Positions 5,591-9,127 of a stretch of DNA of 64,000 bases are shown here, one piece after another. A model generated the notes under the pieces. It was not told the origin of the DNA and ran no database searches. It was given only the letters and a program-made list of their open reading frames with translations. The stretch comes from Parasphingorhabdus flavimaris (GTDB taxonomy: Bacteria; Pseudomonadota; Alphaproteobacteria; Sphingomonadales; Sphingomonadaceae), in assembly GCF_013371215.1 (NCBI RefSeq), contig NZ_JABWMH010000005.1, positions 124,001-188,000 on the forward strand. The letters are read 5' to 3'. Position numbers and translations under genes: made by a program. Numbering within the stretch: the stretch's first letter is position 1; each line of letters starts with the position of its first letter.

Positions 5591-7798
5591 ATGACCTCAG
5601 ACACGATGATTGCCGAGCCCCAGATCTCCACCGAAACCGTGCGCGAGCATGGCCTCAACGCGGAGGAATATCAGCGCATATTGAACGCGCTCGGCCGCGA
5701 GCCGAATATTACCGAACTCGGTATCTTCTCGGTGATGTGGTCGGAACATTGCTCCTACAAGTCATCGCGCCTGCATCTGAAGAAACTGCCGACCACCGGC
5801 CCGCAGGTCATTTGCGGTCCCGGCGAAAATGCCGGTGTGATCGATATTGGCGATGGTCAGGCGGCGATTTTCAAGATGGAGAGCCACAACCATCCGTCCT
5901 ATATCGAACCCTATCAGGGCGCTGCGACCGGCGTCGGAGGCATCCTCCGCGACGTCTTCACCATGGGCGCGCGGCCAGTGGCCAATCTCAACGCATTGCG
6001 TTTCGGACGGCCCGACCATCCGAAGATGAAGCATCTGGTCAAGGGCGTGGTTGCGGGCATCGGCGGCTATGGCAATTGCGTCGGCGTGCCGACGGTCGGC
6101 GGCGAGACCAACTTCGATCCGGCCTATGATGGCAATATCATCGTCAACGCGATGACCGTCGGCGTGGCGGACGCGGACAAGATTTTCTATTCGGCCGCCA
6201 GCGGTGTCGGCAATCCGATCGTCTATGTCGGCTCCAAGACCGGCCGCGACGGCATCCACGGCGCGACCATGGCAAGCGCCGAATTTGACGATGACAGCGA
6301 TGAAAAGCGCCCCACCGTGCAGGTTGGCGATCCGTTCACCGAGAAACTGCTGATCGAGGCCTGTCTCGAACTGATGGCCAGCGACGCGATTGTCGCGATC
6401 CAGGACATGGGCGCAGCCGGTCTGACCAGCTCCAGCGTCGAGATGGCGACCAATGGCGAAGTCGGCATCATCCTCGACATGGACAAGGTGCCCTGCCGCG
6501 AAACCGGCATGACCGCCTACGAGATGATGCTCAGCGAAAGTCAGGAACGCATGCTGATGGTCCTCAAACCCGGCCGCGAAGAAATGGCCGAGGCTATTTT
6601 CACCAAATGGGAACTGGATTTCGCGGTGATCGGCGAAGTCACCGACAGCCGCCGCATGGTTCTCACCCACAAGGGCGAAACCGTCTGCGACATCCCGCTC
6701 GGCCCGCTCGCCGACGATGCGCCGCTTTACGACCGCCCGCATCTGACCCGCGAGGAATATGCCGCGCATATCAATGTACAGCCGATCGGCGATCTGCCCG
6801 AAAGCCCCGATATCGGTGCCGATCTTCTGAAGATGATGGCCAGCCCCGCGCTCGCCTCGCGCCGCTGGATCTGGGAACAATATGACAGCCAGGTCGGCGC
6901 CGACACCGCGCAACGCTCCGGCGGCGACGCCGCTGTCGTCCGCGTCCACGGCACCAACAAGGGCCTCGCGATCACCACCGACTGCACCCCGCGCTATTGC
7001 AAGGCCGACCCCTATGAAGGCGGCAAGCAGGCGATCGCCGAAGCCTATCGCAATCTCTGCGCGGTCGGCGCCAGGCCTCTGGCGACCACCGACTGCATGA
7101 ACTTCGGCAATCCCGAAAAGCCGCATATCATGGCGCAATTTGTCGGCACGATCGAAGGCATGGGCGAAGCCTGCAAGGCGCTCGACATGCCGATCGTCTC
7201 GGGCAATGTCAGCCTCTACAACGAAACCACCGGCGCCGACGGCATCAGCCACGCGATCCTGCCGACCCCGGCGATTGGCGCGGTCGGGCTGATCGACGAT
7301 CTCGACAAGATGATGACCATCGGATTCAAGCAGGAAGGCGATCTTATCGCCACCATCGGCTTCCATCACGAGGAGCTCGGCCAGTCGACCTGGCTCCGCG
7401 AAATCCACGGCCGCACCGACGGCCCGCCACCCAAGGTCGATCTGGCCGATGAAGAATGGGCCGGTCGGACCGTCCGCGAACTGATCGCCGCCGGCAAGGT
7501 CACCGCCGTGCACGATATCAGCGACGGCGGCCTGGCGGTAACGCTGGCTGAAATGGCGCTGGCCGGCAATCTCGGCGCAGAGATCGACAATATGACCAGC
7601 GCCTTCGCCTTCAGCGAGGCGCAGGGCCGCTATGTCATCACCTATCGCAACGAGAATGATCTTGATCGCGCAAAAGTGCCGTTCGAGAAAATCGGTCAGG
7701 TGAAGGGCGACAAGCTTGTCCTCAACGGCAATCCGGTTGCCGTGAGCGACCTCCGCGAAGCGCATGAGAGTTTCTTCCGCGACTGGATGGAAGACTAG
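5591..7798 (+). CDS. purL: Phosphoribosylformylglycinamidine synthase subunit PurL
   Basis: The ATP-dependent ligase subunit of FGAM synthase, fourth step of purine synthesis; it works with PurQ and PurS, which are not in the window. At 735 residues it is the short alphaproteobacterial/Gram-positive type. Visible blocks are [28 protein letters not shown] and [12 protein letters not shown], with [16 protein letters not shown] near the end. A palindromic repeat begins 5 nt after its TAG stop. A long antisense reading frame across it is a codon-bias shadow. Confidence 0.97.
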
Positions 7799-7803
7799 GC
7801 CCC

Positions 7804-7863
7804 GGCCCCTCCACCATGCTTCGCGCGGTCCCCCTCCCCATGCCTGAGGCACAGGGAGGAAAA
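7804..7863 (-). repeat. Two-hairpin palindromic repeat, copy A (short type)
   Basis: Read on the minus strand it runs from CCTCCCTGTGCC through a triloop to GGCATGGGGAGG, a 12-bp stem including two G-T pairs, followed by a second 7-bp stem with one mismatch and the tail GGAGGGGCC. It begins just after the purL stop and is oriented away from copy B. One of six copies between purL and coq4. Confidence 0.88.
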
Positions 7864-7918
7864 GCGGTTTGACAGTTTTGGCCCGACGCTGACAAAATTG
7901 CGCTGATTGTGATACATC

Positions 7919-7974
7919 TTTCCTCCTTGTTGCGAAGCAATGGGGAGGTGGCCTGCGCAGCAGGTCGGAGGGGC
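7919..7974 (+). repeat. Two-hairpin palindromic repeat, copy B; supplies the DUF559 ribosome binding site
   Basis: Stem 1 is CCTCCTTGTTGC / GCAATGGGGAGG around a GAA triloop. Stem 2 is GGCCTGC / GCAGGTC around GCA. The conserved tail GGAGGGGCT ends one base before the ATG of the DUF559 gene, so the repeat's own GGAGGGG is in position to act as Shine-Dalgarno. It forms an inverted pair with copy C1 around the gene. Confidence 0.88.
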
Positions 7975-7975
7975 T

Positions 7976-8332
7976 ATGGCACGAACAACCAGACAAACCG
8001 TCCTGAAAGCAAGGCAATTGCGCAAGACGATGAGCAAACCTGAAATCATGTTGTGGCAGCAGCTCCGCAAAAAGCCGCTCGGTATCAAGTTCCGGCGCCA
8101 GCATCCGATCGGGTCATATATCGTGGATTTCTATTGCCCTTCTGCGAAACTGGCTATCGAAGTCGACGGCATGGCGCACGATATGGGCGACCGCCCGGAA
8201 CGCGATGAGCGGCGAGAATGGGATTTATTTGGCATCGGGGTCGAGGTCATCCGGATAGCCGCACAGGATGTTCTGCATGACCCGACAGATGTCGCCGACC
8301 GGATATTGCGATATATTCAGGGTTTGCGCTAG
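7976..8332 (+). CDS. DUF559 family protein, predicted PD-(D/E)XK/Vsr-like nuclease
   Basis: A 118-residue protein matching the DUF559 pattern: an N-terminal helix with SKPEIMLWQQLR (E23, W27), then GIKFRRQHPIGSYIVDFYC (D51) and KLAIEVDGMAH (E62, D64), which fits the acidic core of Vsr/PD-(D/E)XK nucleases, and a C-terminal VIRI strand. Biochemical role and target are unknown. The ATG at 7976 is preferred over an earlier one because repeat B's GGAGGGG lies at correct spacing. The TAG stop abuts repeat C1. The gene therefore fills exactly the space between two inverted repeats and has no operon partner; this suggests the repeats and gene form one unit. Confidence 0.9.
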   Translation: MARTTRQTVLKARQLRKTMSKPEIMLWQQLRKKPLGIKFRRQHPIGSYIVDFYCPSAKLAIEVDGMAHDMGDRPERDERREWDLFGIGVEVIRIAAQDVLHDPTDVADRILRYIQGLR

Positions 8333-8405
8333 GCCCCTCCGTCATCCACCTACGCCAAGGCTTCGGCGGACGCCACCTCCCCATTGCTGCGCAACAGGGA
8401 GGAAA
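8333..8405 (-). repeat. Two-hairpin palindromic repeat, copy C1 (long type)
   Basis: On the minus strand stem 1 is CCTCCCTGTTGC / GCAATGGGGAGG with a GCA triloop. The second part is longer than in copies A, B, C2 and D1, and shares GCCGAAGCC and AGGTGGATGACGGAGGG with copy D2. It starts at the base after the DUF559 stop. Confidence 0.87.
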
Positions 8406-8420
8406 TAGTTATGTCAATTT

Positions 8421-8479
8421 CTTCCTCCCTGTGCCGCAGGCATGGGGAGGGGGACCGCGCGTAGCGTGGTGGAGGGGCC
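8421..8479 (+). repeat. Two-hairpin palindromic repeat, copy C2 (short type)
   Basis: Stem 1 is CCTCCCTGTGCC / GGCATGGGGAGG with triloop GCA. Stem 2 is ACCGCGC / GCGTGGT with triloop GTA. Separated by 15 nt from C1 and in opposite orientation, giving a divergent pair. The remaining 94 nt before the DUF3052 gene hold C-rich degenerate matches and a Shine-Dalgarno (AGGAGAAGC). Confidence 0.87.
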
Positions 8480-8573: not shown

Positions 8574-8981
8574 ATGACTGCAGGATATTCTGGCACCCCG
8601 CTTGCGAAAAAACTGTCCCTCAAGGACGGCATGCGCGTCTGGTTTCTTGACATGCCGGATAGCGTCCGGTCAGAGATTGAGGGGTCCGACTTGACCTTGT
8701 CCGAGGACGAAGTCCCCGCTCCCGGCCTGCACGCCGCCCATATCTTCGTGACCGATCGGGACACAATGAAACAACATCTCGCAACCCTGCGCGAAATGAT
8801 CGATCCCGCCGGTCAGGTATGGGTGAGCTGGCCGAAAAAGGCTTCGAAAGTCGATACCGACATCACCGAGGACACGATCCGCGAAGTTGCCCTGCCGATG
8901 GGCCTTGTCGACATCAAGGTCTGCGCGGTGGACGCCGTCTGGTCCGGTCTGAAGCTAGTTATCCGCAAGGAATTGCGATGA
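8574..8981 (+). CDS. DUF3052 family protein
   Basis: A 135-residue soluble protein whose start MTAGYSGTPLAKKLSLKDGMRV and the later block VWVSWPKKASK match DUF3052. Function unknown. It has a good AGGAG site before the ATG. It is isolated between repeat pairs C1/C2 and D1/D2; unlike DUF559 it stands about 95 nt from the upstream repeat, so it looks like a resident gene surrounded by insertions rather than part of a repeat unit. Confidence 0.85.
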   Translation: MTAGYSGTPLAKKLSLKDGMRVWFLDMPDSVRSEIEGSDLTLSEDEVPAPGLHAAHIFVTDRDTMKQHLATLREMIDPAGQVWVSWPKKASKVDTDITEDTIREVALPMGLVDIKVCAVDAVWSGLKLVIRKELR

Positions 8982-8984
8982 CAA

Positions 8985-9040
8985 ATCCTCCCTGAAGCAA
9001 AGCTTCGGGGAGGGGGACCATCCGAAGGATGGTGGAGGGG
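8985..9040 (+). repeat. Two-hairpin palindromic repeat, copy D1 (short type)
   Basis: Stem 1 is CCTCCCTGAAGC / GCTTCGGGGAGG with triloop AAA. Stem 2 is ACCATCC / GGATGGT with triloop GAA. Compared with C2 both stems changed sequence on both arms while keeping pairing, the clearest compensatory pair in the set. It begins 3 nt after the DUF3052 stop. Confidence 0.88.
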
Positions 9041-9053
9041 TATTGACTCAAGT

Positions 9054-9127
9054 GGCCCTCCGTCATCCACCTGTGTCAGGGCTTCGGCAGATGCCACCTC
9101 CCCATGCCCGGAGCACAGGGAGGAAAA
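9054..9127 (-). repeat. Two-hairpin palindromic repeat, copy D2 (long type)
   Basis: On the minus strand stem 1 is CCTCCCTGTGCT / GGCATGGGGAGG around CCG; the second segment is the long type shared with C1. It ends 4 nt before the coq4 stop codon and is inverted relative to D1, so the two could also form one large hairpin. Confidence 0.86.

Follow-up and report, generated by a model that had tools for sequence, protein, structure and literature searches.

What is a small nuclease-like gene doing between two inverted copies of a palindromic repeat, with a repeat tail against either end of its reading frame? The question is raised by a 64,000-nucleotide (nt) stretch of the genome of Parasphingorhabdus flavimaris (contig NZ_JABWMH010000005.1, positions 124,001 to 188,000; hereafter the window), in which a gene of the DUF559 family is packaged in this way. 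An earlier note on the window had likened the 487-bp package to the partnership between repetitive extragenic palindromic (REP) sequences and REP-associated tyrosine transposases (RAYTs), albeit with an unrelated enzyme. Our data show that, in bacteria at large, a palindromic repeat stands in inverted copies on the two sides of most DUF559 genes sampled, and that gene and repeats occur jointly at a site that is devoid of both in most relatives. We think it probable that a REP-like superfamily has its dedicated nuclease in DUF559, which is copied, together with its repeats, by repair.

The arrangement described in the earlier note is real (Table 1). The inner repeats face each other as inverted arms (7906-7963 and 8361-8418) that are 81% complementary over 58 nt, and are themselves enclosed by outer arms (7804-7861 and 8422-8479) that are 95% complementary over the same length. 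The left tail, GGAGGGGC, stops one base 5′ of the ATG – an upstream in-frame ATG exists at 7940 – and its complement, GCCCCTCC, begins at the base directly 3′ of the TAG. The enzyme is not of the RAYT kind: the gene matches PF04480/DUF559 (E 1.9e-29, 102.1 bits against a Pfam cut-off of 20.6), its match to PF18741 stays below the cut-off of that family, and PF01797 gives no match in Pfam. A short distance downstream lies a tail-to-tail doublet of the same kind of repeat, 15 nt separating its halves, that carries no gene; its right half falls narrowly outside our strict repeat pattern. Probably the 487-bp unit and the scattered tail-to-tail doublets are two forms of one REP-like mobile palindrome, the former with a gene and the latter without.

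Table 1. Gene and repeats at the DUF559 locus of the window (window positions)
Feature	Position	Strand	Basis or remark
DUF559 (PF04480) gene, 118 aa, predicted Vsr/EDxHD-like small nuclease	7976..8332	+	Open reading frame and Pfam
Left inner repeat (class II) with a head hairpin, a further hairpin and a GGAGGGG tail toward gene start	7921..7973	+	Fold z -2.69
Class II repeat, right inner copy, tail toward stop codon	8334..8403	-	Fold z -2.48
Class I repeat, left outer copy	7806..7860	-	Fold z only -1.16
Class I repeat, right outer copy	8423..8477	+	Fold z -3.17
Spacer, left outer to left inner repeat	7861..7920	.	On the other side in inverted orthologous loci (reading of L196, L200, L204 against L193)
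Class I repeat, left half of gene-less tail-to-tail doublet	8986..9040	+	Repeat comparison, strict pattern
Class II-like repeat, right half of gene-less doublet	9056..9126	-	Direct repeat of 8335-8405, 82% identical

Evidence that the arrangement is general came firstly from DUF559 loci of the same family and phylum. The family set comprised 152 loci (the two genes of the own genome plus 150 of the best-scoring places, so that weak members are under-sampled) and the phylum set 70 loci from a phylum-wide search, 40 of them hand-chosen and 10 from the window's own family; three of these 222 were dropped before counting because of a duplicate protein or too near an end. Controls were taken from the same loci and consisted of mechanical open reading frames (ORFs) of at least 150 codons, which are not curated genes, and of random intervals of the same length. 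Hairpin arms of at least 8 bp occur within 130 nt upstream of 126 of the 152 family DUF559 genes, against 19 of 208 control ORFs; a downstream hairpin is found at 58 of 152, against 31 of 190. The threshold score of 30 was reached at 173 of 219 DUF559 loci when the upstream flank was aligned locally with the downstream flank in reverse complement; for the control ORFs the count was 5 of 457 and for the random intervals 9 of 1300; at a score of at least 40 the counts were 154/219, 1/457 and 0/1300. It follows from the control ORFs that the repeats are not equally common beside any gene. Pairing left and right flanks from different loci gave a score of at least 40 in only 115 of 1088 combinations, which indicates that the two copies at a locus match beyond a common style.

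Extension of the analysis to other phyla gave the same picture. The set consisted of the best 80 of 555 relatives matched by a low-GC relative; judged by record titles they come from Pseudomonadota, Bacteroidota, Nitrospirota, Chloroflexota, Zixibacteria, Patescibacteria, Clostridia and others. Six were dropped (duplicate protein or too near an end), leaving 74 usable loci. Here 42 of 74 DUF559 loci scored at least 30, whereas control ORFs did so in 3 of 136 cases and random intervals in 2 of 543; mismatched pairs reached 30 in 88 of 362 cases, and 40 in 39 of 362 as against 26 of the 74 own pairs. Averaged within 178 clusters at 70% protein identity, for the family, phylum and cross-phylum sets together, 74% still score at least 30. 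Chance as a source of the flank arrangement is rejected by shuffles, control ORFs and random intervals alike, and the association between DUF559 and repeats is solid.

What the lineages have in common is a layout. A clear palindrome is present in the upstream copy at 171 of the 180 loci scoring at least 40, and in 143 of the 171 it lies on the gene-distal side: usually, then, the hairpin stands outside and the tail points toward the gene, while the repeat sequences themselves differ between lineages. The idea of a cognate sequence identical across all DUF559 genes was accordingly discarded. Two loci (L226 and L252, genome G491), which have the top two flank scores of the family and phylum sets, show DUF559 flanked by near-perfect inverted repeats of about 90-100 nt that are unlike the G-rich types. 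At several others (L238, L249, L265 and L283 among them) the DUF559 C-termini, NPHPNPLPERERE for example, read as translated downstream repeat.

Similar flanks were seen by eye on plasmids. Among seven inspected of the 41 plasmid records with a match, two Deinococcus and three cyanobacterial copies are flanked, and a Thermoactinomyces relative has no such flanks; for plasmid spread of the exact window unit we found just one 32-nt repeat match. A long hairpin, again by eye, precedes an unannotated DUF559 copy of E. coli, which is presumably ycjD. Two other homes for the gene were considered and rejected: phage cargo, a relative being present in 2 of 50,697 phage records at E 1e-5, and a defence system, for which PADLOC returned weak domain matches only.

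The repeats are also found dispersed. The core pattern has five matches in the window and none in 100 dinucleotide shuffles; the strict full pattern has 30 copies scattered through the 3.35-Mb genome, compared to none for a reversed control pattern. Class I copies terminate in GGTGGAGGGG, class II copies in ACGGAGGGG or TCGGAGGGG. Both class I hairpins are conserved despite sequence change: in 17 aligned copies 98.7% of cells pair, whereas slid controls do not exceed 64.5%. Both partners differ in 31 cells, where shuffling gives 10.0 on average. The class I hairpins covary by this measure; the number of pairs with change on both sides and the number of pair types both lie within the shuffled range. 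Fourteen of the 30 strict copies form seven tail-to-tail pairs less than 100 nt apart, and there are three head-to-head pairs and one direct pair. Summed over six genomes – completely for the own genome, and among the matches listed for five hand-chosen others – the counts are at least 40 tail-to-tail, at least seven head-to-head and at least one direct. Among the matches listed, tail-to-tail spacing is near constant within several genomes: 31-32 nt in G108, 14-15 in G006, 40-44 in six of seven pairs of G157, 41-42 in four of six pairs of G202, and 13-17 in 12 of 13 pairs of a metagenome genome (G499). A corresponding low-GC repeat pattern was present in all of 16 genomes, picked for pattern-like DUF559 flanks or from the same phyla, in 1 to 83 copies (at least 10 in eight of the 16), and its reversed control gave none. 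The second DUF559 gene of the own genome (L009:1441-2110, C1:860059 region) is preceded by a different palindrome, CCCCTCCTTTGAAGAGGAGGGGC, with related copies in less regular order behind the gene.

Repeat and protein also diverge together. Across 41,353 locus pairs without detected neighbour similarity, upstream repeats are similar (score of at least 50) in 0-1.1% of pairs below 45% protein identity, in 15.5% at 60-70% and in nine of nine above 80%. Taking all 8,736 pairs that share at least 50% identity, the figure is 6.1%, as against a mean of 3.2% and a maximum of 4.3% in 500 permutations. Strict repeats are rare, too, in family genomes that lack DUF559. We compared 249 genomes of the family, 11 of the DUF559-negative ones being identified by elimination: at least five strict class I/II repeats are present in 63 of 218 DUF559-positive and 0 of 31 DUF559-negative genomes, and at least one in 98 of 218 and 3 of 31 (one to four copies), respectively.

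Orthologous sites allow gene and repeats to be followed together. The unit lies downstream of a gene (5591-7798) that we take to be purL from reading its AIRS and FGAR-AT domains, and upstream of a gene (8574-8981) with weak likeness to DUF3052 (22.2 bits, just under the 22.7 cut-off). With the downstream gene as anchor, an orthologous DUF559 gene follows purL in 10 of 27 loci, the own included. In three of the ten (L196, L200 and L204) the outer repeats enclose gene and spacer in reversed direction, the outcome expected if these repeats recombine with each other. At L203 gene and tails are gone and one head palindrome is left, an apparent deletion, and some relatives (L205 and L213, for example) have no class I/II repeat at the site. 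In two further relatives, L197 and L199, the interval between purL and the DUF3052-like gene carries a two-gene module in place of the DUF559 unit; to our eye the module resembles a VapB/VapC toxin-antitoxin pair. The empty sites that the note had proposed to look for exist between trpB and trpA as well: of 30 such loci 28 were readable and 26 of these lack DUF559, 10 of them without a single intergenic base. The G-rich repeat strings searched for there occur at one of the 26 and at both of two filled loci. In filled copies such as L125, L139 and L078 the repeats are near-perfect inverted copies, and no more than about 15 nt separate them from trpB and trpA. Gene and repeats thus behave as one unit, present together where both are missing from most relatives.

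The protein itself is maintained. Among nine purL-locus orthologues (the tenth, L195, is frameshifted and was excluded) the median ratio of nonsynonymous to synonymous substitution rates (dN/dS) is 0.097 over 31 of 36 pairs, three of the remaining five being undefined, one over-saturated and one having a dN/dS of 0; the DUF559 protein at this locus is under strong purifying selection. An AlphaFold model of the window protein (mean pLDDT, the program's per-residue confidence, 87.8) was matched by Foldseek to the crystallised endonuclease-like protein 3hrl (E 2.2e-7), to the homing endonuclease I-Bth0305I (3r3p_B; E 1.4e-5, TM score 0.75 by target length) and, more weakly, to Vsr (1vsr; E 0.041). 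Sequence profiles agree on 3hrl and 3r3p (profile E 3.3e-5 for the latter), so that in sequence and predicted fold DUF559 resembles I-Bth0305I and, to a lesser degree, Vsr. Five residues, E23, D51, E62, D64 and D77, are invariant in 60 sequences and H68 is present in at least 90%; by reading, E23, D51, H68 and D77 may be likened to the EDxHD active-site positions. In Caulobacter, lack of a cytosine methyltransferase leads to an SOS response for which VsrA, a DUF559 protein, is responsible (PMC12907096), and at least one member of the family thus appears to damage DNA in vivo.

How might such an enzyme disseminate repeats? The nuclease would recognise the repeat doublets of its own lineage, be it as cruciform, hairpin or duplex, and would cut near the tail-tail centre of the doublet. 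The break could then be repaired from another copy by way of the flanking repeats; repair of this kind would spread empty doublets as non-autonomous units and occasionally, in a homing-like manner, the gene itself, and would at the same time keep the repeats homogeneous. With a gene inserted at that centre the target would be interrupted and the bearer thereby protected, as homing endonuclease genes protect theirs.

The main question between the readings is the direction of dependence, whether DUF559 drives the repeats or lives off them. The gene could be a REP parasite that homes into existing doublets while something else spreads the repeats. Gene-less doublets do outnumber gene-bearing ones – in the own genome there are seven strict tail-to-tail pairs and one repeat-centred DUF559 gene – and the gene is placed just where a nuclease that cuts the doublet centre would insert. 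A parasite, however, predicts repeat-rich genomes without DUF559, and the 31 DUF559-negative genomes include none with five or more strict repeats; at trpB-trpA, a G-rich repeat string is present at just one of the 26 gene-less sites. We regard parasitism as unlikely, while giving it more weight than any other rival. Another rival is a RAYT or other Y1 transposase that moves the repeats in trans, with DUF559 as cargo, and family genomes with Y1_Tnp do carry strict repeats more often than those without (at least one repeat, 22/37 against 79/212, p 0.017; at least five, 18/37 against 45/212, p 0.0009). But Y1_Tnp is absent from 45 of the 63 genomes with at least five repeats. The own genome has one intact IS200-like Y1_Tnp gene and one decayed copy, neither of them bordered by class I/II repeats in the stretches read, and they were rejected as drivers. 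A RAYT-type transposase is an unlikely cause of repeat spread, and that one should carry DUF559 as cargo seems to us the most far-fetched of the explanations.

Two further readings were weighed. In a passive expression cassette the tail would serve as ribosome binding site and the downstream hairpin as transcript end, the repeats being kept for the sake of expression; the GGAGGGG just before the ATG and the hairpin repeat after the stop codon are in its favour. The rarity of the arrangement at other ORFs of the same loci is not, and a cassette predicts neither the match between left and right copies nor the joint divergence of repeat and protein. We regard this account as improbable. It is slightly less probable still that DUF559 is a host mismatch-repair enzyme of Vsr type whose flanking repeats are neutral or structural neighbours. 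The weak structural match to Vsr, the purifying selection and the functional tie of VsrA to a cytosine methyltransferase (PMC12907096) speak for such a role. The Vsr family model TIGR00632, by contrast, does not match the window protein and gives a relative 16.2 bits against a cut-off of 97.85, and two-sided inverted repeats across phyla would be left unexplained.

Several observations weigh against DUF559 as a mobile nuclease of its own repeats. Below the flank threshold lie 46 of 219 family and phylum loci, among them the second DUF559 gene of the own genome, and 32 of 74 cross-phylum loci; at some DUF559 loci (L290-L298, for example, by eye) the repeat stands on one side only. Own pairs in direct orientation also score at least 40 in 67 of 219 cases, so part of the flank score is owed to the hairpin itself, as it must be with palindromes. 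No strict class I/II repeat is present in 120 of 218 DUF559-positive family genomes, where other repeat types must therefore be cognate, and the presence/absence tests ignore phylogeny. Some trpB-trpA sites without DUF559 have palindromes of other types (by eye in L409 and L414) or hairpin arms of at least 8 bp (L407, L422 and L430). A target-site duplication was sought there without success, since a short TGAC may just as well be a regenerated start/stop overlap. Movement is probably rare, since many copies at trpB-trpA and purL look vertically inherited. Finally, a role in mismatch repair has been proposed for VsrA of Caulobacter (PMC12907096).

These points bear directly on the RAYT-like logic suggested in the earlier note. 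The idea that a DUF559 protein travels with a REP-type palindrome finds strong support and extends to many phyla. DUF559 may drive the repeats, and the 487 bp may be the whole mobile unit; inversions at the purL locus involve the stretch between the outer repeats instead. The note had also recognised that DUF559 genes lacking these flanks would tell against it. Taken literally such genes are found, the exact repeat sequence being lineage-specific; in substance the objection is answered, because most other DUF559 genes carry inverted palindromes of their own.

Repeats of these kinds also occur inside genes. A tail-to-tail class I doublet lies in frame within an ORF that looks like truB (L020:1501-1625, own genome C1:853968-854092). 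At the same position the 29 loci of the genus that were compared (L377-L405) have doublets from three or more other repeat families, the GTCATCCTGAAC type included, and the position seems to be a hot spot where REP families replace one another. Another in-frame case is a head-to-head pair of class I repeats within a 965-aa ORF (L032:1501-1620, own genome C3:583293-583412), which in our estimation resembles isoleucyl-tRNA synthetase.

Should our preferred reading of DUF559 as a repeat-copying nuclease be true, the minimal mobile element would consist of one nuclease gene of about 120 codons and two hairpin repeats of about 40-70 nt, and would be one of the most compact mobile genetic units. A role would be found for a 'domain of unknown function', and G-tailed palindromes, found far beyond the own genome, would gain a candidate driver with a solved family structure; the origin of these REPs would be testable by cleavage and copy-number experiments. 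The partnership between enzyme and repeat appears to be previously unrecognised: in the full-text literature searched, which covers few subscription journals and no preprints, we found no report of a link between DUF559 and palindromic repeats and, for the string AACCCTCTCCC, no paper on such repeats, judged by title. The enzyme has received attention on its own account, a 2005 paper relating YcjD to Vsr (PMC1189080) and a 2022 paper assigning a DUF559 gene to the EDxHD family (PMC9403480).

Comparison with known systems places the DUF559 unit among them without equating it to any. I-Bth0305I, an EDxHD homing endonuclease, is related to the window protein by sequence and fold; here, however, there is no intron or intein host and the protein has just 118 aa, and whereas such endonucleases have one allelic site, this gene lies between multi-copy palindromes. 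With REP-RAYT systems, in which the trees of RAYTs and REPs are congruent, the unit has its logic in common, as well as the many dispersed genomic copies (30 strict ones here). The enzyme class differs – a PF01797 HUH tyrosine transposase there, a Vsr/EDxHD-like PF04480 protein here – and two defining RAYT features are absent, the Y1_Tnp/HUH tyrosine transposase and the GT(A/G)G head. The head is absent immediately 5′ of the palindrome by reading the head palindrome ends of the window copies and own-genome pairs (the strict pattern fixes a TCCTCC start and hence is no test for such a head); the repeats end in a G-rich tail that resembles the hairpin's own arm. REPINs and other REP doublets akin to miniature inverted-repeat transposable elements are likewise short, dispersed, inverted hairpin doublets, and the near-fixed spacing in several genomes is a further parallel; here the candidate enzyme is DUF559 and the orientation mainly tail-to-tail. 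Two super-families of REPs, tagged GTAG and CGTC, comprise palindromic repeats in many phyla, and CGTC REPs are said to have no dedicated transposase, according to a 2013 survey (PMC3733652). The DUF559-linked repeats read here differ from both in being untagged, with G/C-rich arms and a G-rich tail, as in CCCTCTCCC..GGGAGAGGG..GAGGGG and CCCCCTTT..AAAGGGGG..GGGGGATT. We see about an even chance that there is a third, panbacterial REP superfamily, untagged and G-tailed, that has DUF559 proteins as its dedicated enzymes and spreads by nuclease plus repair and not by a transposase.
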